Positions 9,354-43,679 of a DNA stretch of 46,571 bases are shown piece after piece. A program made the translations under genes and the position numbers. The notes beneath the pieces were generated by a model, which ran no database searches, was not told the origin of the DNA, and saw only the letters and a program-made list of their open reading frames with translations. The first letter of the stretch is position 1. Each line of letters begins with the position of its first letter. Where the stretch lies: assembly GCA_025358765.1 (NCBI GenBank), contig JANYIG010000113.1, forward strand, positions 1 through 46,571, given 5' to 3'. This DNA is from Candidatus Kapaibacterium sp. GTDB taxonomy: Bacteria > Bacteroidota > Ignavibacteria > Kapaibacteriales > UBA4661.

Positions 9354-9475
9354 TCTTCGTCACAATGCTCCCCATACCCGCACAAATCGCCATCATGCCC
9401 GGCGTTTTCTGACCACAGAATGACAGCATTTGTTGCGGAAGTCTTGTTGGCGCTGAAACAGAAAGATGTTTGACT

Positions 9476-10324
9476 ATGAAATTTACAGCAAAGAAGTTTC
9501 TGACATTAAAACGCCTCCGAACAACAATCCTGTATGCCGCTCTCTTCGCAGCCGCCGCAGGCATGATGTTTCCTATCGTCTGGATGTTGCTTCTTTCGCT
9601 GCGTGAACAACCGCAAAGCTACAGCACATTTTGGGCGTTGCTCACGGCTCCCACATCGCTTTTGAATTACACAGAAACACTTTCCTCCGATGCGTTTGGG
9701 CTGTATTTCCTCAATTCCGCTTTTGTGTCGGCGGCGATTACGGCGGGCAATGTATTGTTTTGTTTTATGGCGGGTTATGCGTTTGCGCGACGGGAATTTT
9801 TTGGCAGAAACGCCCTGTTCATCAGCGTTTTGGTTGTACTAATGATACCGCCGCATGTGATTATGATTCCCCTCTATCGCATGATGGTTAATTTTGGCTG
9901 GATTAACACGTTTTACGCACTTATAATCCCGTGGCTCGTGATGCCATTCGGGATTTTCCTTGTACGCCAATACGTGATGAATCTGCCCAAAGACGTGGAA
10001 GATGCCGCCCGCATTGACGGCGCTGGCGAATGGTACATTCTCTTTCGAGTTGTGTTTCCACTTTGTACACCTATTCTAACGGTACTTTCTATCTACGTGT
10101 TTTTGAGCAATTGGAATTCGTTCCTTTTTCCCTTTCTTTTCAGCAACGACGAGGCGCACAGAACCCTTCCCGTCGGGCTTGCGTTCTATCAGGGTAAGCA
10201 ATCCATTGACTGGGGGCATTTGATGGCGGGTGCAAGCATTTCTGCACTGCCAATTCTGACCTTGTTTTCATTCTTCCAAAAGCAGATTATCGAGGGTTTG
10301 ACGGCTGGTTCGTTGAAGGAGTGA
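9476..10324 (+). CDS. Sugar-type ABC transporter permease (MalG/UgpE family)
   Basis: Inner-membrane permease of the CUT1 carbohydrate importer group. About six hydrophobic segments are visible. The EAA loop that docks the ATPase reads EDAARIDGAGEWYILFRVVF, followed by PLCTPILT. The C-terminal YQGKQSIDWGHLMAG and QKQIIEGLTAGSLKE are characteristic of MalG-like subunits. ATG 9476 is preferred, with GAAAGA nine bases upstream; a TTG lies two codons earlier. Oddly, no second permease, binding protein or ATPase is nearby: the gene stands between dacB and the convergent res remnant. The partners may be elsewhere or lost. Confidence 0.9.
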   Translation: MKFTAKKFLTLKRLRTTILYAALFAAAAGMMFPIVWMLLLSLREQPQSYSTFWALLTAPTSLLNYTETLSSDAFGLYFLNSAFVSAAITAGNVLFCFMAGYAFARREFFGRNALFISVLVVLMIPPHVIMIPLYRMMVNFGWINTFYALIIPWLVMPFGIFLVRQYVMNLPKDVEDAARIDGAGEWYILFRVVFPLCTPILTVLSIYVFLSNWNSFLFPFLFSNDEAHRTLPVGLAFYQGKQSIDWGHLMAGASISALPILTLFSFFQKQIIEGLTAGSLKE

Positions 10325-10342
10325 GTAAGTGCAAGCCGCTCC

Positions 10343-12953
10343 TTACATCTGCCGAAGATGCTGCAAAAACTCATCCATCGTGTGTGCACCCGTTACCACG
10401 CGGCGTTCATAAACCATGTAATACCGATACTCATTTCCCGCTTTGTTTGCCCACGTGTTTCCCAAACGTATTTTTTGCTCTGCGTCCAAATGGTCGCCTT
10501 TGGTCTCCAACACCAATGTTTTGCCGCTCTTGGTCTGAATGATAAAATCGGGATAATGATTCACAAAGCCGTTAATTCTAAAGCCCTTCTTTTCAATATT
10601 CCGTGTCCAAAAAAAGATGTTTTCCATATTGGCAACCTCATTGATAACACGCTCCTCGAAGCCGTTCATTGCCGCCTCTTTTTCAAAAAGCATTTTGGGC
10701 ATGTCCTGGGCGCTATAGATGACGGCAACACAAATGACGGCTTCATAAAAATTGCGCCTGTGTCCAACAAATTTTTGAACTGTTTCTCGCCGTGCTGCTC
10801 CGACAGAAGTTTTATTTTTTGCTTGATTTTCTCAGTGTAGGTGCGTTCGTTATCGGCAAAATCCGCGAACTGCTCTTCACTGAAATCTTCGAGAATACTT
10901 GTGATATATTTTTTGATTTCGCGGTCTGCTATCGGGTACATATTCCCAATGATATTCATAATGCGATCGGTGAAGTTTCTCACCCGCGCCTCTTTTCGTG
11001 CGGGGTCAAGGATGTAAGCCATCATATTTTCTTTCACTAATCCCCTCAAACGAAAAGGAACGGGCGTGTGCTCTTTTTTGATTCGTCCAAATCCACCCTG
11101 TACAGCTCTGCTTCAATGCCCTCGAAGGTTATATGCCTATCTGCCTTGCTCAACTGAAAATCTTCTAACAGGTATTCCTTTGCTACAGGAATCTCTTTTT
11201 CTCCCATGACAAAAAGGTCATTGCTCGGAACCTTCATATAAAACTGCGGCAGCCGCAACTGCTCGGCTTGGGCGCGAAACACCTCCTTGATGCGGTACGT
11301 TTTCATAAGCGATTGTAGTTCATTGGGGATAATAGCGCTTTTGGTTTCTTGCGTGGCGACGACAGCTTTTTCAAACGCCTCCGATTGCTTGATAACTGCA
11401 AGCTCCATGACGGCTATATTTTGCGTTGTGATTTCTTCTGCTGGCGATGCGGCGGTTGGTACGACGATTCTTGCGATGTCTATGTCGTCCTCCTTGCTTG
11501 TTACCACATCAGCAAGCTGAAGCTGCTCCGCGCTTTCGGCGGACGGAGCCTCTGGAGTTGTGGATTCTTCCGGCATGGCTATTTTGTAATCCTGTTCGCT
11601 GAAGCCCGCACGATTCAGCCCTTTGACGATATTGTGCAGAGTTTCCCTAAATTTCGATGAAGCAGTCAGCACATAACTCATGTTCAGCAACGGAAAGGCG
11701 TGATTCATCACGTAAGGCTGCCGCAGCACCCGCCCCAACACTTGTTCCACATCCACCGCCGAGGATTTATCAGCCAGCGAAGCCAAAATGTACGCAAAGG
11801 GGCAATCCCAGCCTTCTTTCAGCGCGTTGACCGTGATGATGTATCGCACAGGACAATCACGGCTCATCAAATTTTCGTTTTTTATCTCATCATGGTCTGC
11901 CGTTTTAAGCCTAATCTGCTCTTCCGGTATTTTTAGCTCTACTAATTTCGCTTTGAGCTTCTCAAACGTTGTATGGTCGTCGCCCGTTCTGGGCTGCGCT
12001 TGAAACAGCACAATAGGGCGAATGTACTTGCCGCCTTTGCTCTCTTCTTCTTTCGCTTGCAGCTCCAAACGCCGTTGAAGCTGCAAGGCAGAATTGACCA
12101 CTTCGGTTTTGTCCTGATGATTATACACAATCACGGGTAGCTTGACCATAGATTCTTTTTTGAGTTCCAGCGCGTCTATGAAGCTAATGATGTTGCTGTT
12201 CTTGCGCGGTGTTGCCGTCAGGTCAAGGATAAAGCACGGGTTCAGCTCTTTCAGCATATCCACACTAAGCTCGCTTTCAGCGTTGTGGCTTTCATCCACA
12301 ACCACAACGGGATGCAGTTGCTTGATGACCGCGCCTAATGTAACGTCGTTTTCTGTGCCAACCAAATGTTCAAACGATTGCAAATTGCCATTTTCCTGAA
12401 ATATTTTGCGGTCTTCTTTGTTTCGCGCCCTCAGGCTGTCGAAACTGAACACCATTATCGTCAATTGCTCCTGCACACTGCTTGCGTTGAAGCCCACACC
12501 TTGCAGTAGTGCGGCTTTGTCTAACACTTCCACACGATGCCCAAAATGTGCGTTGATTTTTTGGCGATAGGGATGCGCGGCGTTACTCAAGTTTTTTAGC
12601 GTTTGCTCCAAAATCGCAACCGACGGCACAAGCCACACCACCACACGTGGTCGGTCGTCGTATCGGCGGTCACTATCAAACGTCCCAAACGCATCAAATA
12701 TGGTCTTGAGCGCATTGCAAGCGATAAACGTTTTGCCTCCTGCCGTTGGCACTTTCAAACATACGTGCGGCACACGCGGGATGTTATTTTTGTACGGCTC
12801 TATGGCAGTTCCCGGAAACGGCTACAGGGCAGTGCGTGGATGCATTGCCCAAAAATCGTGAAATGCCTCGCGCACATTGTTGGTGTGCCGAAGGTGTTCC
12901 AAAAAAAGCGCGAGGTCGCCGATGACCTGTTGTTGATAGGGTTTGAGTTCCAT
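10343..12953 (-). pseudogene. res: Type III restriction enzyme Res subunit, inactivated (amber stop and two frameshifts)
   Basis: Remnant of a Res subunit of about 870 codons that would pair with the mod gene at 14042. Reading begins at ATG 12953 (MELKPYQQQVIGDLALFLEH), runs 43 codons, then hits an in-frame TAG at 12822-12824 where CAG is the likely ancestor, and continues as PFPGTAIEPYKNNIPRVP. Helicase motifs follow: VPTAGGKT (Walker A), VVVDESHNAE (DExH), LTATPR and VLGRVLRQPY (motif VI). A first frame change falls near 11046-11056 (a run of four A on the plus strand) and a second near 10698-10712. After that the nuclease domain (NHYPDFIIQT, VLETKGDH) runs to 10343. All three frames keep family-like sequence up to the breaks, so decay is recent, or the assembly has errors. 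Confidence 0.9.
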
Positions 12954-12981
12954 ATAATTCTTCTTTGGTGTGTGGGCTTTG

Positions 12982-13410
12982 TCAATCAGCCATCTCCATT
13001 TTGAACGGTTTCAGCACGCCATACTGTTCCAAATATGCAGCAATAATCGAGACTGGCTGCGGGATAGCTTGCCTTCCGTGTTCTAATTCCGAGATGCGTA
13101 CTTTTGCACTACTTGGAGCATAGCCAACAGCAATACCAAACTGTTGTGCAGTCATACCGAGCGATGTTCGCAACGTCTTCAAACGTTCCGGCGTATAGGT
13201 CGGTACAAGAAGGATTGCATCGCCCGCCTCGACCTCAGTGTTATATCCTTCACTGAGGATACGAGGCGCAGGATGCTGTACTGGAGCCGACCAGTTAAAT
13301 TCATCAAGATTGATGTCGTCGTCATCCGAAAAAGACGCACTACCGTTACTCTTTCTCACGTCATTGTTTCTCCCATTACCTTTGGGGAAAGTTCTGTTTG
13401 AGGGATTCAT
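12982..13410 (-). CDS. HTH (XRE-like) protein, probable antitoxin of the BrnT-like toxin
   Basis: About 142 residues from ATG 13410, which follows AAGGAG at ten bases; the longer open frame lies over the toxin gene in another frame. The N-terminal third is polar and acidic (DDDDINLDEF), the C-terminal half is a helix-turn-helix: YTPERLKTLRTSLGMTAQQF, then GIAVGYAPSSAKVRISELEH and GRQAIPQP. The first 35 bases overlap the end of the broken brnT gene, the usual toxin-first order. BrnT is normally paired with a ribbon-helix-helix antitoxin (BrnA), so an XRE-type partner is less usual. Likely role: bind and repress its own promoter, perhaps through the palindrome at 13730. The gene is intact and ends 28 bases before the res start. 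Confidence 0.75.
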   Translation of the reverse strand: MNPSNRTFPKGNGRNNDVRKSNGSASFSDDDDINLDEFNWSAPVQHPAPRILSEGYNTEVEAGDAILLVPTYTPERLKTLRTSLGMTAQQFGIAVGYAPSSAKVRISELEHGRQAIPQPVSIIAAYLEQYGVLKPFKMEMAD

Positions 13411-13675
13411 AGCGTTCCAGCTCCTTTTTGTGTGCGGCTCGCGCACTGATAATACGATAGTTGGGTGTTCTATACGTGTAAACAACCAGTATCACACGGC
13501 TATGTGAGCGTGCGGTACCAATGCCTAAAAATCGTTCTTCGTCGCCAGTAGCGTTTTGAGAGCGCAGTGCGTAGAAATCAGGGCTTTGGAAGATTTCTTG
13601 TGCTTAGATGAAACTAATACCATGCTTTTCGATGTTGGTGGCTTCCTTGTTTGCATCAAACTCAAATGTCATCAT
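13376..13675 (-). pseudogene. brnT: BrnT-family ribonuclease toxin, interrupted by an ochre stop
   Basis: Ninety-nine sense-length codons from ATG 13675 (or 13672). The start reads MTFEFDANKEATNIEKHGIS, a BrnT signature (F.FD..K...N..KHGI.F). It then meets TAA at 13604-13606 after SFI, and continues in the same frame as AQEIFQSPDF, GDEERFLGIGTARSHSRVIL, VVYTYRTPNYRIISARAAHK and KKELERYESLK, which is the rest of the RelE-like BrnT fold including the conserved R.ISAR.A. CAA to TAA would explain the stop. BrnT toxins cleave mRNA; this copy should be inactive unless the stop is suppressed. The open HTH gene overlaps its 3' end. No ribosome site is evident before the start. Confidence 0.85.
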
Positions 13676-13729
13676 CTGGGAAAAGGGAAAGAATCGTGAT
13701 TCGTATTTCCTCTGCAAAGTTATGGCATA

Positions 13730-13750
13730 AAGTTACGCATTCCGTAACTT
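13730..13750. promoter_or_regulatory. Palindromic operator-like site upstream of brnT
   Basis: AAGTTACG (13730-13737) and its exact complement CGTAACTT (13743-13750) flank a five-base centre. The site lies 55 bases before the brnT start, next to TAACTTTG on the minus strand (13715-13722), a TAnnTTTG-like box. Copies of the half-site occur again in the inverted repeats at 13813 and 13999. An operator for the HTH protein is the natural reading, but binding is inferred only. Confidence 0.45.
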
Positions 13751-13798
13751 ATTTCCAACGACATGATGAAACCAGTGCGACGGCGACGGTCCTGCGGG

Positions 13799-14019
13799 CT
13801 TCATAACTGAAGTTACGCTTGGATACAATTCCCCTTCGTCAGCCGTCTTCGGTGATGAAGGGGTGGCGCACCGTCTTCGGGGCGGCGGGGTAGATCTTCA
13901 TCGCCGGAGGGGGGAAACACCCCGTCCCCTGACGCAATGCGTCAGGGAAAACGGCAGGACACCCCTCTTTTAGGAAAAAGCGGGGAATTTCAAAGCAAAG
14001 CGTAACTTCAGTTCATAAG
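13799..14019. repeat. MITE-like inverted-repeat element between mod and brnT
   Basis: A 221-base noncoding block bounded by 22-base inverted repeats (13799-13820 and 13998-14019; 19 of 22 bases match, with 16 consecutive identical, AACTGAAGTTACGCTT). Inside are a further hairpin (13831-13841 with 13853-13863) and a near-perfect 21-base palindrome (13927-13947, CCCTGACGCA, A, TGCGTCAGGG). The interior is visibly richer in G and C than its flanks. No open frame and no clear target-site duplication are seen. It occupies most of the 366-base gene-free gap 13676-14041. It could be a small non-autonomous element or structured regulatory DNA. Confidence 0.55.
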
Positions 14020-14041
14020 ACAGATGGATTGTTTGAATCTC

Positions 14042-15628
14042 TCAAAATCGCGCCATATCACGTGGTATCTTTTTGAAAATTATTTTCCGCTCTGCCAATG
14101 CCTCCGGCGGAAGTAAGCAATTATCCGCATAGATAACATACTCCTCCGCTTTGGTGCGTACGTGTGCCAAAAACGCATGATTGAGCGTCGTTATCGCTCC
14201 AGCTTCGTAGTGGAAATAATACGCGGTCTCGCCGTGCTTGCCCAAGAATGCAGGCGTTTCTTGATGGCTCGAATCCCGCTTGGGAAGCGGCGTTCTGGTC
14301 TCCGTGTAATACACATACTCGCGTATATGTTCTGCACCAACGCTTTCGTTCAGGTTGCCGTCCTCGCCAAAAAGCGGTGCGCCCATCTCGTAGAAATCAA
14401 ACGCGCCACCCATACCTTCCGTGCCGCCATACCCCGTGATAACACGCTTCACACGCTCGGCAGTGATGCTCTCGGCGTACGGCTCCATTTCTATCAAAAT
14501 AAATTTCCTTGCGCCACCGTCCTGCTTATTCAGGTTCAACACCGCGTGCGCTGTGGTGCCGCTTCCAGCGAAGGAATCAAGGATGAGGGAGTTTGAATCT
14601 GTCGCAATTTGGAGGATCCGTTCAATAAGCCTTTTGGGTTTGGGCGTATGAAATATTTCACCTAATCCCAAGATTTGGATTTCCTTCTTCGCCTCATGGT
14701 TATGACCGACTTCATCATAACGCCATAAGGTTCTGGATACTAAGCCTTCAAATTTTAATTCAGATAAAAAGGTTTTTTTTGATGGGCTATTTTTTCCATC
14801 ACTACCAAACCATATTTCATTGTTGGCGAATAATTTATCTAATGTTTCACGGCTAAATCTTGGGTACGTTCCCTTAGGCGGTGTCCATTCATATCCGTTC
14901 GGAAAAATATGTCTAAAGTTAGAATCAGAGCCGCTTTTAGCATGAATCGGAGTGGCTTTCCATTTTCCCTTTGGGTGATTATCGGGATTTTTATAGGCAT
15001 CGTTCATTTCCTCTGTTCGAGGCAGCCTTCCTACCTTCAAACTGCTTTTATTTTTCGCGTACCCAACGATAAAGTCGTGATTATCAGAAAGATATTTTGC
15101 ATCATTTGCTACGGTATATTTTTTTTCCCAAATGACATTATTGATAAAATTTCCCCCGCCAAAAATCTCATCCATGATAAGTTTCAAATTGGCTTGTTCG
15201 TTGTCGTCAATAGAAATAAAAATTGCGCCGTCGTCTGCAAGGAGTTTATGCAGGAGTTTAAGGCGTGGATACATCATGCAGAGCCATTTGTCGTGGCGGG
15301 AGAGGTCTTCGGATTCCTTGCCAACGACCGCGCCGAGCCACTTCTTGATTTTGGGGTCGTTCACGTTATCGTTGTATATCCAGCCTTCGTTTCCGGTGTT
15401 GTAGGGCGGGTCAATGTAGATGCACTTGACTTTACCTTCGTATTCGGGCAGAAGTGCTTTGAGTGCTTCTAAGTTGTCACCGTGAATGATTTTGTTGCCC
15501 GATGCCGTAGCTTCGCGCGTTTGTGTGCTGCCGCCATCAAAACCATACTGCTGTTCCAGCACTTTGAAGGGAACGTCGCGGTGGTGGTTCAAAACCTGTT
15601 CTTTACCAATCCAGTGGAGTGTAGGCAT
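14042..15628 (-). CDS. mod: Type III DNA methyltransferase Mod subunit
   Basis: Adenine-N6 methyltransferase of the beta class, the recognition-modification subunit of a type III system. Motif IV, DPPYNTG, lies near residues 73-79, preceded by KIIHGDNLEALKALLPEYEG. Motif I, FAGSGTTAHAVL, comes late, near residue 355, the order typical of Mod. GAIFISIDDNEQANLK is another family block. The variable middle (about 170-330) should be the target-recognition domain. At 528 aa it is a compact member. It is the first gene of the locus on the minus strand; brnT, the HTH gene and the broken res follow. No lesion is seen, so it may act as a solitary methylase. Confidence 0.93.
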   Translation of the reverse strand: MPTLHWIGKEQVLNHHRDVPFKVLEQQYGFDGGSTQTREATASGNKIIHGDNLEALKALLPEYEGKVKCIYIDPPYNTGNEGWIYNDNVNDPKIKKWLGAVVGKESEDLSRHDKWLCMMYPRLKLLHKLLADDGAIFISIDDNEQANLKLIMDEIFGGGNFINNVIWEKKYTVANDAKYLSDNHDFIVGYAKNKSSLKVGRLPRTEEMNDAYKNPDNHPKGKWKATPIHAKSGSDSNFRHIFPNGYEWTPPKGTYPRFSRETLDKLFANNEIWFGSDGKNSPSKKTFLSELKFEGLVSRTLWRYDEVGHNHEAKKEIQILGLGEIFHTPKPKRLIERILQIATDSNSLILDSFAGSGTTAHAVLNLNKQDGGARKFILIEMEPYAESITAERVKRVITGYGGTEGMGGAFDFYEMGAPLFGEDGNLNESVGAEHIREYVYYTETRTPLPKRDSSHQETPAFLGKHGETAYYFHYEAGAITTLNHAFLAHVRTKAEEYVIYADNCLLPPEALAERKIIFKKIPRDMARF

Positions 15629-15780
15629 GAGATAAGAAAAAAGTATCGAGGAAAAATATCGGGTAAAAAAATGAGTCCCGCACGAAGTGCTTCAAGCAAA
15701 TACGCACGAATCTGTAAAAATAGAACCGCTATGGAATATCGGCAACGTTTTTCTTCGGAAGTTGCGTCTGTAGAAAACAA

Positions 15781-15812
15781 CAAAAAAAGCCGCTTCAGTA
15801 TTGAAGCGGCTT
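15781..15812 (-). terminator. Intrinsic terminator after the tRNA gene
   Basis: An 11-base perfect stem AAGCCGCTTCA (15787-15797 with 15802-15812) with a four-base loop is followed on the minus strand by seven U residues (15782-15788). It lies 16 bases past the tRNA 3' end and points the same way. Confidence 0.88.
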
Positions 15813-15827
15813 TGAACGTGATGTCAG

Positions 15828-15900
<73 letters not shown>

Positions 15901-15936
15901 GAACCTTCTGTCTCTGATCTATCGCAAAGAATCTCA

Positions 15937-16716
15937 TTAATTGTTGAACAACCCAACAAACAAGCCAATCTGTGCGGTGAAACCTGTAGCATTAAAACTT
16001 GATGGGACACCCGAAATAGGTGCGATATTGTCAACTTTCCAATCGCCAACGGAGGAAATCGAATATCCGGCACTTATACGAACCATGGAAAATAAGGCAA
16101 ACGCATATTCAAAATTCAAATTTGGCTGCACAAAAAAGTGTCCCGCCCGTGCATATCGGTGATAGTTGTCTTTGGCAGAACCAAACGTAAATGTTGGGTC
16201 AAACGCTTGGCTCGCACCGCTGGATTGGCTCGACTCGAACGTGATATTGCCCCAACCAATATTTGCACCCGGCAAAATTGAAAATCCACGAAATGGGCTG
16301 ATGGCGTAATCAATACTCACGCCGTTCATCGTCATACTATATTCCACGCGGCGAGAAAAATTACCTACTGTTCCTTCTTTGAATGCACCACCACCAACGC
16401 TCATAAACCCCAAACGCACATTCGGGATAATCCCAATAGCAGCGAACGCTTGAGCACCGGTCAATAAAAATGGTGAAGTCATGGAAGCCCCCGGTATCAA
16501 TTTGCTTAGGATTCCATTGAGGTCGTCAACGTTGTGGAACATCGCCGTCGCAATAAAACCGCCAGCAACAGCAAAATACGGTGGTTTTGCTTCTTCCGTC
16601 GGCACATCTTCAAACGAAAACTGGTTGAGTTTGTCGTCCTGCGCCATTACGGACGCTGAGGAATACACAACCAAAGCCAAAATAATAAAAGCACATCGGC
16701 GAAGTAGTGTGGACAT
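15937..16716 (-). CDS. Outer-membrane beta-barrel protein, unknown role
   Basis: About 259 residues from ATG 16716, chosen because it begins a clean signal peptide (MSTLLRRCAFIILALVVYSS, cleaved after VMAQ); the open frame extends to 16845 without sense. The mature protein alternates polar and hydrophobic residues in short strands rich in Gly and aromatics, ending GFTAQIGLFVGLFNN, as in small porin-like barrels. I recognise no specific family. It lies last in a minus-strand series after glgA, a lipoprotein and a FadL-like protein, but has its own promoter-like site at 16749-16781. Confidence 0.7.
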   Translation of the reverse strand: MSTLLRRCAFIILALVVYSSASVMAQDDKLNQFSFEDVPTEEAKPPYFAVAGGFIATAMFHNVDDLNGILSKLIPGASMTSPFLLTGAQAFAAIGIIPNVRLGFMSVGGGAFKEGTVGNFSRRVEYSMTMNGVSIDYAISPFRGFSILPGANIGWGNITFESSQSSGASQAFDPTFTFGSAKDNYHRYARAGHFFVQPNLNFEYAFALFSMVRISAGYSISSVGDWKVDNIAPISGVPSSFNATGFTAQIGLFVGLFNN

Positions 16717-16748
16717 ATCAAATGAGGAATATGGGTGAAACCTGTTTA

Positions 16749-16781
16749 CAAATTTACAGCAATATCGGGACTGGAACCAAA
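16749..16781 (-). promoter_or_regulatory. FCB-type promoter for the outer-membrane gene at 15937
   Basis: Minus strand: TTTG (16778-16781), 21-base spacer, TAAATTTG (16749-16756). It lies 33 bases before the chosen ATG 16716 and supports that start over the longer open frame, whose extra codons would cover the promoter. Confidence 0.5.
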
Positions 16782-16817
16782 AACGATATACGAAGCCACA
16801 TCGAAAAAGTTCATTTT

Positions 16818-18062
16818 TTATTCTCTGGCGAATGGCTGGAACCATACTTCACCAATATTTATTGAAAATGAGAACCGTGCAAATCTCTCTTGCAAAAGTC
16901 CGCCATCCACCGTACCACGAACGCCAGCCGTCACCGATGCGTCCAGCATTGCCCGCCGCGTAACGGGGATTCCCAAACCAAACGAGCCATACATTTCGTT
17001 GATGCCCGTATTGTTGATTTGATAATATTGCTGATGATAACCAAAGCCAAGATTATACGTCAACGATTCAAAGAGCGACGCATTGTATTCGGTACTCCCT
17101 GCGTATGAAATGCCCAGTGACAATCTGTTGGCACGACGAAATACAACCGCGTCATTACCCGTTTGATACGAAAATGACGAAAAATCCTTTGTTACAGCAT
17201 CTATAAACACAGATGTCCGACCAATCCGATGCCCAATGCCAACACCAAACGTCAGCGGCATAGTGGTTTCGCCTGCAACTGTATCAATAATATCTGGAAT
17301 CACCGTAAACCGATAGAGTGTCTGCCTGTCAATACTTAGTTTTGTGCTGAAAGCAGCAATCGCGCCAAATGTCCAATTCTCAAGACCAGTGTACTGTAAG
17401 CCTAATGTAAAACCTAACCCGGAAAATTTATCCGTGATTTTGGTCGTGCTGGCGTATGCGTTTTGGTCGGATGGCTGCGACGTGATAATTTCCGTACGGT
17501 TTCCAAACAAGTATTTCACCATAAGTCCTGCACTCAAACCCGACAACGGTCGCACCGAAGCACCCAAATGTATTTGGGACAACCCGCCCTTGCCAGTATA
17601 GAGCGTTATTGCTTGGACTTGCTCTTTCGTAAAGGCAAAACTAACATTGCTCGCAGGGGTTATGCCCAAACTCACACCGACACCCATCGTCGTATCAACA
17701 GCAAATGCCGTTGAAAAACCTTGCACCTCGCCGTTGTTTTGGCTGGCTTGCCCGTCCTGAGTGTTTGTGACTTGAAACTGGCGGAAGGTAAATCCTGTTT
17801 GAAATCGAGTTGTTTTTAGACTTGACCAAGCAGCAGGATTCGTAAAATTGATGGCATACGGGGAGGTTACACCAATCCCAACACCGCCCATACCCTCGTA
17901 CGCGCCACCTAAACTCTCTCGAATATCGCCAATACCAAAGTAGGAATAATTCGAGCCTCCATTGATACCTTGCGCCTGTACTGTCAGCGCTGTCAACGAC
18001 GTTAGTGATATGCAGCCCACCAACACAAATACCGATACGATTATATGACGGAATGCTGGCAT
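16818..18062 (-). CDS. FadL/OMPP1-like outer-membrane protein
   Basis: A 414-residue exported barrel protein. A signal peptide (MPAFRHIIVSVFVLVGCISL to VQAQ) precedes YSYFGIGDIRESLGGAYEGM, then GVGIGVTSPYAINFTNPAAW, a pattern seen in FCB members of the FadL-like long-chain transporter group (early Gly-rich plug, then NPA). The rest alternates as beta strands and ends SFSINIGEVWFQPF. Substrate is unknown. It begins three bases after the lipoprotein stop, so the two are surely co-transcribed and perhaps act together at the outer membrane. Confidence 0.72.
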   Translation of the reverse strand: MPAFRHIIVSVFVLVGCISLTSLTALTVQAQGINGGSNYSYFGIGDIRESLGGAYEGMGGVGIGVTSPYAINFTNPAAWSSLKTTRFQTGFTFRQFQVTNTQDGQASQNNGEVQGFSTAFAVDTTMGVGVSLGITPASNVSFAFTKEQVQAITLYTGKGGLSQIHLGASVRPLSGLSAGLMVKYLFGNRTEIITSQPSDQNAYASTTKITDKFSGLGFTLGLQYTGLENWTFGAIAAFSTKLSIDRQTLYRFTVIPDIIDTVAGETTMPLTFGVGIGHRIGRTSVFIDAVTKDFSSFSYQTGNDAVVFRRANRLSLGISYAGSTEYNASLFESLTYNLGFGYHQQYYQINNTGINEMYGSFGLGIPVTRRAMLDASVTAGVRGTVDGGLLQERFARFSFSINIGEVWFQPFARE

Positions 18063-41114: not shown

Positions 41115-41311
41115 GTCTGCTGTGATTGGTCTTGGGGTTGTGATGTGGTCAATTCGTCCGGGTAAACCCATCGGACAACGCCGTTTTCCCAAATAGGAAT
41201 CTTCAAGCCCGCCTTACGAGCTTCTTCGCGGGCATTGTGGGCGGCACGGAGCATGGCGGCTTGGATGCCCTGCAATTCAGTTTCATCGAATTGGTGTGAT
41301 GTCGGTGTCAT
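41111..41311 (-). CDS. Small protein, probable antitoxin partner of the zeta-like kinase
   Basis: A 66-residue protein: a helical half (ETELQGIQAAMLRAAHNARE) followed by KAGLKIPIWENGVVRWVYPD and a polar tail. Small proteins with an alanine-rich helix and a K.G..I..W.NG.V pattern are often neighbours of zeta-type kinases, hence the guess; I do not recognise a named family. A strong ribosome site (AAGGAGG) lies six bases before ATG 41311. It overlaps the kinase gene and the res-like gene by four bases each. It could also be a structural subunit of the RM complex. Confidence 0.6.
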   Translation of the reverse strand: MTPTSHQFDETELQGIQAAMLRAAHNAREEARKAGLKIPIWENGVVRWVYPDELTTSQPQDQSQQT

Positions 41312-41823
41312 GGTTTGCCTCCTTTGTCGAGTATGATAGGTACTATGTTTGTGTTATCATATAAAAACCATTCATCAACAAGTTGCTTATACAAGTGATC
41401 AAAGTTTTCTAATCCTGCCGCGAAGCGGCGGCGAATCACGCTCTCGGGAATATGATGACCGCCAAGCGCGACACGGTTTTGCACTCGTGCAATCGCAATT
41501 TCCGGCGAAGGCAAGCGAAGAAAAAATAGCTTTACCACATAACCACTTGCTTGCCAGTGTGGAATATCGCGGGCGTAATTCTTACCGCTCAAGGTGGTTT
41601 CTATCGCAAAACTCTCGCCTCGTGCGGCACACGCCGCTATCATGGACAGCATGATTTTCCCCGCTTGTACGGCTGCCGCTTCGGGTGCGAAAGGGCTGAT
41701 ACCCGCCGCTATCAAATCTGCATTGATGAACGTGAGTACGCCTGCTTCGTGCGGAAGAAATTCGCGGGCAAACGTCGTTTTTCCCGCGCCGTTGGGTCCG
41801 GCGATAATAAAAACACGTTTCAT
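41308..41823 (-). CDS. Zeta-toxin-family P-loop kinase
   Basis: A 171-residue kinase. Walker A is GPNGAGKTT at residues 9-17. FINADLIAAGISPFAPEAAA and FAIETTLSGKNYA follow, then VKLFFLRLPSPEIAIARVQN and HHIPESVIRRRFAAGLENF, the lid with paired arginines, all typical of zeta toxins, which phosphorylate UDP-N-acetylglucosamine or related sugars and stop wall synthesis. The open frame is undamaged. It begins inside the mod stop (ATGA) and ends inside the next start, so it is fixed in the RM operon. Whether it is toxic or a sensor kinase is open. Confidence 0.85.
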   Translation of the reverse strand: MKRVFIIAGPNGAGKTTFAREFLPHEAGVLTFINADLIAAGISPFAPEAAAVQAGKIMLSMIAACAARGESFAIETTLSGKNYARDIPHWQASGYVVKLFFLRLPSPEIAIARVQNRVALGGHHIPESVIRRRFAAGLENFDHLYKQLVDEWFLYDNTNIVPIILDKGGKP

Positions 41824-43679
41824 ACTTCTTCAGCGATCTCTTCTTCGTTCCCGCCCTCTTCCGGCGGCAAAATATCGCGGTATGCCTTGTATATCGCCTC
41901 CGGCAATGCACACAGCTCCACGCGGTCAATTACTTCTTCAAATTCTTCGGTGAACGGATGCTGCGACGGCGAAAATACATACACCTTAATTTTCCTGCTT
42001 CCCTGCGTAGGCAGATGCGTAGGTAGCGCCGCAATAAACTCTACCGCCCGCTCTACTGCTTCGTCAATGTACCGCGAGGGATAAATAAGCAGCATCTGCA
42101 CGTGCCGGCTTCCGGACGCATCCGCGAAAAGCCGCATTTCCCCGGCATCCACATCGGGCGGTGTTTCCAGCTCGGTGTAACAGTTTTCTTTGATGCACAG
42201 CATCGCTGTGGCACGGCGTGTGAGTTCTTCGCGGTTCCGGCTTGTGCGTTCGCGCAGCACAAAGTCCGTGCGGTAGTAGCGGAGCGCATTCTGCCGTAGC
42301 CCCGCGACCGCTTCGCCGTTGGGTTTTGTGTAGCCCTCTATCACGCGGCGGTTGCGCTCGTAGCAAACTTCTTCGGCAATACCGTTTTCGTTGTTTGTCA
42401 CCAAAATGCACTGCCGCGCCCCGCCGTCCGCCGCGTTCAGCGCCATCACTGCATGCAGCGTTGTGCCGCTTCCGGCAAAAAAGTCGAGGATGAGGGAAGA
42501 TTTGTCGCCGTTGAAACCGAGGAGATATTTGATGAGCGAAGTTGGTTTAGGGTAATCAAATTTATTAACGCCTAATTCAATCAATTCCAATTCGGCAATT
42601 TCGTTAGTCCCGACACCAACAGTTCTATCAATAAGATTTGGCGGTACTTCCGGCTCGTACTCAGCTTTTTCATACGATAAAATCATCGTTTTTGTTTTTA
42701 TCGTCATTACCGTACCTCTGCTCAATTCTTCGTCCAAGTTGTCTTGTGTCCAAATAAATTTGCCTTTGAGAGCAACTTCGTTCACATTTTTGCCATTAGC
42801 AATTTCCACATCATTAAGGAGCGCAATATGGTATCTATCTGTGCCGTACAAACCGGATTTTATCTGTGTTTCCTTGATTTTAATATTGAGTGTTTGGGGT
42901 GCAAACTTCAAGATTTTTTCGCTGTTTTGATGTTTCATCATCGGATTATCGCTGGAGCTACTTTTCTGTAAGCCCTGAAAGCGCTGATTATTTCTAATTT
43001 TTTCATAGCACACCACAAATTCAACTTTCCCTTTTGTCTTATTTGAAAGGTTTGAAGGTGTTTCTGTTTTTACCCATGAAAAAATTTCAATAAAATTCCC
43101 CTCCCCAAAAACCGTATCGCACAAGAGTTTGAGTTGTGCTTGTTCGTTGTCATCAATGGAAATAAAAATAACGCCCGTGTCTTTCAGCAAGCGGTGAGCG
43201 AGCGTGAGGCGGCGGTGCATGAAGGCAAGCCATGCAGAGTGGCGGTAGGAATCTTCTTTCTCCACAAAGCGGTCGTTGTAGCGGAAGTCTTTATTGCCGG
43301 TGTTGTAGGGCGGGTCAATGTAGATAACATCCACGTTGCCTTCGTGTGTGAAGGCAAGTGTTGAAAGCGCATGGAGGTTATCGCCTTCGATGAGGATGTG
43401 GTTAGGCACATTTTCTTCAAAGAGGGTTTCGCCGTCAGGTTTTGCGGGCGGAAGAATGCGGCGCTCCGGCACTTCCACCAAGACGGGCAATTCGGTGCGA
43501 AGGCGTGTTTCTACGTCTTCCGGTCGGTCTTCCCAAAGCAAGCCATAGTGCTGCTGCAAACGCCCCGCAAGGTAGTCATGTTCGTCGTCGGTAAGAATAC
43601 CGCTTTGTTTGATTTTTGCCAGAATTTGTTCGCGGAGGCTTTCGGAGCGTGGCTGCTCGGAAGAGTTTCTTTTTGCCAT
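41820..43679 (-). CDS. mod: Type III DNA methyltransferase Mod subunit (second locus)
   Basis: Adenine-N6 methyltransferase, beta class, 619 residues. An N-terminal helical region (DDEHDYLAGRLQQHYGLLWE) precedes ILIEGDNLHALSTLAFTHEG and motif IV DPPYNTG near residue 122. GVIFISIDDNEQAQLKLL follows, then a variable target-recognition part (about 205-370), then motif I FFAGSGTTLHAVMALN near residue 410. It differs from the Mod at 14042 in length, N-terminus and variable part, so a different target is expected. It leads an operon of four genes, all with ATGA overlaps. No promoter of the TAnnTTTG type was seen upstream. Confidence 0.94.
   Translation of the reverse strand: MAKRNSSEQPRSESLREQILAKIKQSGILTDDEHDYLAGRLQQHYGLLWEDRPEDVETRLRTELPVLVEVPERRILPPAKPDGETLFEENVPNHILIEGDNLHALSTLAFTHEGNVDVIYIDPPYNTGNKDFRYNDRFVEKEDSYRHSAWLAFMHRRLTLAHRLLKDTGVIFISIDDNEQAQLKLLCDTVFGEGNFIEIFSWVKTETPSNLSNKTKGKVEFVVCYEKIRNNQRFQGLQKSSSSDNPMMKHQNSEKILKFAPQTLNIKIKETQIKSGLYGTDRYHIALLNDVEIANGKNVNEVALKGKFIWTQDNLDEELSRGTVMTIKTKTMILSYEKAEYEPEVPPNLIDRTVGVGTNEIAELELIELGVNKFDYPKPTSLIKYLLGFNGDKSSLILDFFAGSGTTLHAVMALNAADGGARQCILVTNNENGIAEEVCYERNRRVIEGYTKPNGEAVAGLRQNALRYYRTDFVLRERTSRNREELTRRATAMLCIKENCYTELETPPDVDAGEMRLFADASGSRHVQMLLIYPSRYIDEAVERAVEFIAALPTHLPTQGSRKIKVYVFSPSQHPFTEEFEEVIDRVELCALPEAIYKAYRDILPPEEGGNEEEIAEEV

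Follow-up and report, generated by a model that had tools for sequence, protein, structure and literature searches.

The type III locus and its genes

The stretch of DNA analysed here, called the window in the following, comprises 46,571 nt of contig JANYIG010000113.1 from Candidatus Kapaibacterium sp. and carries a type III restriction-modification (R-M) locus in which a methyltransferase gene (Mod), a BrnT-like/HTH pair and a restriction subunit gene (Res) follow each other on the minus strand. The family sequence of Res covers 2611 nt (10343–12953, minus strand) and is spread across three reading frames. Reading the minus strand from the ATG at 12953, the protein starts with MELKPYQQ as in many relatives, and after 43 codons an amber TAG (12822–12824, minus strand) is reached at codon 44, exactly where a preliminary description of this DNA had placed it. 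The amber strikes a tolerant position, since the respective alignment column is variable across 59 relatives (F 19, Q 10, M 8, H 4, L 4, gap 4, Y 3, I 2, S 2, K, T and N 1 each); a related genome of the same family (G007, described below) has a sense codon there. In this alignment and in those used to place the frame changes the rows of L034 and L038 are too short, because their Res start had been set at an internal MELK.

The rest of Res is divided into three open pieces on the minus strand, in agreement with the 575, 127 and 119 codons reported before: the largest (11046–12773, 575 aa) is the helicase part with AGGKT, DESH and GRVLR, the second (10666–11049, 127 aa) lies between the helicase and nuclease parts, and the third (10343–10702, 119 aa) retains a PD-x(n)-ExK nuclease motif. 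Family-like residues run on past each break as had been claimed: using 59 relatives as tblastn queries, the homology of the 20 relatives listed lies first in frame 3, then in frame 2 and finally in frame 1, with the switches at 11040–11079 and 10681–10729. Both frame changes noted in the preliminary description are present, although the first one is displaced. It was given near 11050, but we prefer a position at about 11073 within an A6G run (11071–11081, minus strand, frame A to B), because frame A keeps the family sequence through ‘DESKK’ and frame B takes it up from ‘EHTP’ (nine listed of 59 aligned relatives). The second (10703–10725, minus strand, frame B to C) had been expected near 10705 and indeed falls between ‘SSIAP’ and ‘DMPK’, at about 10723 to 10705. 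Here the window proves to be 13 nt shorter at the DNA level than six aligned sequences, namely five relatives and a piece from G007, and this lesion is not a simple base-call slip. With an amber and two frame changes Res is thus not present as a single ORF in this assembly.

The 575-aa piece was recognised by the PADLOC model REase_III (230.5 bits) and by Pfam ResIII (47 bits), and the frame A translation retains the helicase motifs AGGKT, DESH and GRVLR, which we take to be Walker A, DExH and motif VI, respectively. An excerpt of PMC2667262 lists similar motifs for mod and res. In the last piece the C-terminal nuclease motif reads PD-x(n)-ETK; the 119 aa match no Pfam family at E 0.001 and reach 24.1 bits with the NCBIfam restriction endonuclease NF046055, far below its cut-off of 800. 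Sequence similarity to the Res structure of EcoP15I (4zcf) is weak (21.9 bits).

Mod itself (14042–15628, minus strand, 528 aa) is open and of full length, retains DPPY and FAGSG, matches PADLOC MTase_III with 704.7 bits over positions 1–541 of 542 and can be aligned over residues 1–528 with many relatives. The locus therefore shares with type III R-M systems of the EcoP15I kind the presence of Mod and Res in one locus, the helicase motifs, the C-terminal PD-ExK and a Mod with DPPY and FxGxG, but differs from them by a Res that is broken in three places and by extra genes that separate Mod and Res. About 200 nt upstream of Mod a tRNA-Met gene (anticodon CAT) is located at 15827–15900; tRNA genes often adjoin inserted islands. 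At 41308–43679 the window encodes another type III Mod, of 619 aa, and after it a Zeta-toxin-like ATPase. This Mod looks solitary, as no match to a Res profile was obtained among the neighbouring ORFs scanned around it.

The gap between Mod and Res (12954–14041) is filled by the BrnT-like/HTH pair, and in the relatives L003 to L068 the same place acts as a slot for varying cargo. The BrnT-like gene (13376–13675, minus strand) carries an in-frame TAA at 13604–13606 and hence is not a single open frame; with X at the stop it matches PF04365 completely (1–77 of 77, 83.1 bits). Its end is overlapped by an open gene for an HTH-like protein of 142 aa (12982–13410, minus strand), for which HTH_31 gives 20.4 bits, below the cut-off of 27; to call this protein the antitoxin is only a guess. 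Between Mod and the BrnT-like gene lies a MITE-like dispersed repeat (13790–14028) with inverted arms (31 nt, 77% complementary), of which five further places with 89–97% identity over about 210 bases exist in the same genome.

Relatives of the locus and the gap between Mod and Res

One scan of genome contigs yielded 68 related loci. In 59 of them Res is a frame of more than 800 aa ending in a stop, one of these (L050) being cut at its 5' side. Among the other nine, six reach a contig end, L067 crosses N runs, L048 contains an in-frame stop close to N bases and the homology of L069 stops at residue 133. For the 61 relatives with a Mod match, Mod is open in 53, partial in seven and in two frames in one, L063 from Nitritalea, which is another possible broken partner. 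Matches were also present in 89 plasmid records, two at 60–80% identity and 87 below 60%, and no relative was confirmed in viral contigs, which were scanned by pattern. No empty site of the locus emerged, since a permease and a BamG-like neighbour are found on different contigs in all seven relative genomes that match both, the second match being weak in G009.

The end of Mod is near Res in 61 of the 68 loci, with a gap of less than 150 nt in 24 and of at least 150 nt in 37, and 36 of these 37 longer gaps hold an ORF of at least 75 aa (L034 was placed by hand in the short-gap group without cargo). Of 50 gap ORFs found, 42 were scanned, which gives 44 together with the HTH protein of the window and one ORF from G007; one ORF each from L004, L007, L008, L011, L013 and L047 and two overlapping frames were omitted. 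Among the 25 of 29 Pfam families listed there are at least seven RhuM, six AAA_15/AAA_21, five YhcG/DUF1016, five Fic and four DUF4276, at least two each of DUF559, 23S IVP, DUF4160 and DUF2442, and at least one each of UvrD, an OLD-like TOPRIM and Bro-N. These counts are lower bounds because some ORFs were missed (e.g., in L014, L026, L046 and L049), and the relatives are not independent, several being Algoriphagus. RhuM and Fic/Doc have been linked to R-M operons before, as seen in an excerpt of PMC3710099, and a weak literature search found no description of a type III Mod-Res cargo slot. For specialists in defence islands this variable cargo may be of greater interest than the broken Res.

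G007 belongs to another genus of the same family and carries a like type III locus. Ten genomes of this family were searched, all of them outside the genus of the source organism. In a blastn comparison of the window with two G007 contigs all matches are limited to Res and Mod, some of them to the second Mod of the window (42421–43325), and thus the flanks differ. Over query residues 1–407 the G007 Res has 85% identity; its two pieces are located at one end each of contigs C108 and C7. Each of these ends matches at least 39 other listed places (40 scored of 114 and 40 of 90 candidates, respectively), and among the 39 listed per end 23 and 18 start at base 1–3 of a contig. The ends share a 21-nt inverted sequence, with ATTACAA on both sides. 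This fits a multi-copy element that was apparently inserted into the G007 Res, the joining of C108 and C7 being inferred. The repeat ends in question are L087 1–51 and L088 1–58. As the G007 Mod in addition shows a frame change near residues 92–100, the G007 locus looks broken in other ways than that of the window, although errors are possible in G007 as well, its genome being a draft.

Alternative readings of the interrupted frame

Our reading of the locus as a type III R-M system (Mod, BrnT-like/HTH pair, Res) whose Res is a recent pseudogene is held with high confidence and had to be weighed against several others. The true Res might be intact and the lesions might stem from mistakes made in sequencing or assembling a fragmented draft genome. 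The source genome (98.25% completeness, 2.31% contamination) is indeed split into 362 contigs, the frame change at 11073 lies within an A run, a usual site of base-call slips, and our controls count stops and not frame changes. However, a 13-nt deletion and a nonsense change differ from run-length errors, and in-frame stops, registered by the controls inside conserved domains only, were found in none of 44 ABC-ATPase places and in one of 13 ResIII places, which is the Res locus under study; of the places matching Mod, one of seven has such a stop. Many other genes of the window match their profiles from end to end (e.g., IPPT 1–243 of 243, S13 1–438 of 444, GlgA 2–477 of 477, DUF2807 1–181 of 181), which is a partial test because YdjM matches 8–114 of 176 and some genes match nothing. 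Finally, the TAA of the BrnT-like gene is a fourth lesion in the same locus. We therefore regard errors as an improbable explanation, and the earlier argument that three separate lesions speak against a single sequencing slip is strengthened by the multi-base deletion, the stop in the BrnT-like gene and the rarity of in-frame stops in the controls.

An intact Res might also be made by recoding, through a programmed -1 shift on A_AAA_AAG at 11079–11073 combined with amber read-through. A AAA AAG is a slippery sequence, this in-phase heptamer sits exactly at the frame change, and the amber codon falls into a variable column. Against this, 41 of the 46 relatives listed (a pattern-matched subset of the 59) encode Lys-Lys at this place, unlike G007, so that an A-rich run is expected without any recoding, and in those 46 a single frame continues across the site. 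Folding of the 72 nt downstream is not better than that of shuffled sequences (z 0.19), the 13-nt deletion is still to be overcome further downstream, and TAG also terminates one of the 21 window genes counted, which speaks against its read-through. Programmed frameshifting was rejected on the relatives’ single frame, the lack of a special downstream fold and the further deletion, and we give recoding practically no credence. Somewhat less remote, yet still very improbable, is that Res is split and each piece forms a subunit of its own. All three are open and have possible starts (GTG 12773, TTG 11049, ATG 10702), and the first and last retain their motifs. Yet no clear split form was seen among the 68 relatives, 59 of which have one long frame while the other nine are explained by contig ends, N runs, the stop near N and the early end of homology. 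In addition, the large ORF does not cover the first 44 codons or the sequence up to 12773, and 13 nt of the family sequence are missing at one of the breaks. Split subunits were rejected on the relatives’ single frames. A second Res acting in trans was rejected as well, as none of the genome’s other sequences, which include 12 other ResIII-domain places, matches Res at E 0.001.

Age of the lesions and fate of the locus

To date the pseudogenization of Res we can use the comparison with G007. Over 448 codons of the N part dN is 0.095 and dS 2.36, the latter near saturation, and the differences at the three codon positions number 62, 31 and 215. Conservation of Res is poor between about residue 408 and the first frame change (163 codons, dN 0.47, with dS saturated); for pieces B and C dN is 0.245 and 0.162 and dS 1.33 and 1.55, respectively. 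The low dN relative to dS points to a mostly purifying history of Res, and because of this and of the catalytic motifs retained in the pieces the breaks appear recent relative to the split from G007. The lesions had been called recent before, and this holds in that relative sense only. Compared with the N part of Res, the Mod of the window is more diverged from its counterpart, the main G007 Mod ORF (410 codons, dN 0.311, dS 1.61), which may be due to the variable recognition part.

Relaxation of Res may already have begun, as far as the alignments suggest. Using L015 as outgroup, 27 amino-acid changes of the N part are assigned to the window branch and 16 to that of G007; the numbers are 23 and 16 if L016 serves as outgroup and 23 and 15 for L009. 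At family-invariant Res columns, defined on close relatives with the distant L054, L055, L057, L058 and L059 omitted, 16 of 285 positions deviate in the window, the highest value of 56 rows, and six of 285 in G007 (Fisher p 0.048), from which the possible relaxation follows. The signal is modest, since the intact relative L051 deviates in 13 of 298 columns. The window Mod deviates in one of 88 invariant columns, and the difference between Res and Mod is not significant alone (p 0.086).

According to our model the amber would end Res translation after 43 codons, the first frame change would part the helicase from the middle part and the 13-nt deletion the middle from the nuclease part. Inner starts would be no rescue, the helicase and nuclease parts being in different frames. 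Due to the amber and these differing frames restriction has most likely been lost; if no working Res is made, the locus would no longer restrict DNA. The methylase beside the recently dead Res is predicted to be probably still active, and Mod would then be made and methylate its target as a solitary methylase. Res presumably died before Mod, because an earlier loss of Mod would have exposed the host DNA; in the part of PMC4176335 consulted, methylase loss with a still working nuclease is described as possibly lethal.

A similar state is described for Haemophilus influenzae and Neisseria, where, following the excerpt of PMC2667262, inactivating res mutations occur next to retained mod genes in the modA loci (phasevarions). 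Like these the window has an inactive Res and a retained Mod. Phase variation of Mod was rejected here, as a tandem repeat scan of 9400–16900 (minimum score 30) revealed no short-unit repeat tract able to switch Mod. Unlike the modA loci, the window locus has just two weak repeat rows with units of 12–13 nt (2.0 copies at 10940–10963 and 2.4 copies at 15639–15669), and although the 13-nt row at 15639–15669 lies 11 nt ahead of the Mod start any regulation by it would be putative. With the solitary (orphan) methyltransferases treated in the consulted part of PMC4176335 the locus shares a methylase without a working cognate nuclease, but differs in that the dead nuclease gene still adjoins Mod. 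The locus may go on to full decay, or Mod may be retained for another use. That it is turning into a solitary methylase, with Res dead in place and Mod selected for a task outside defence, e.g., gene regulation, is a tentative idea which we consider rather unlikely; this pan-genome study, in the part consulted, regards the decay of whole systems as a rare route to solitary methylase genes.

In summary, Res is a well-marked pseudogene of an ordinary type, and the type III locus around it is decaying. It offers a clear example of the decay of a restriction system, with the nuclease lost and the methylase still open, and a like locus from a second genus of the family is apparently decaying too. 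The annotation ‘type III R-M’ of this locus should therefore not be taken as active defence.
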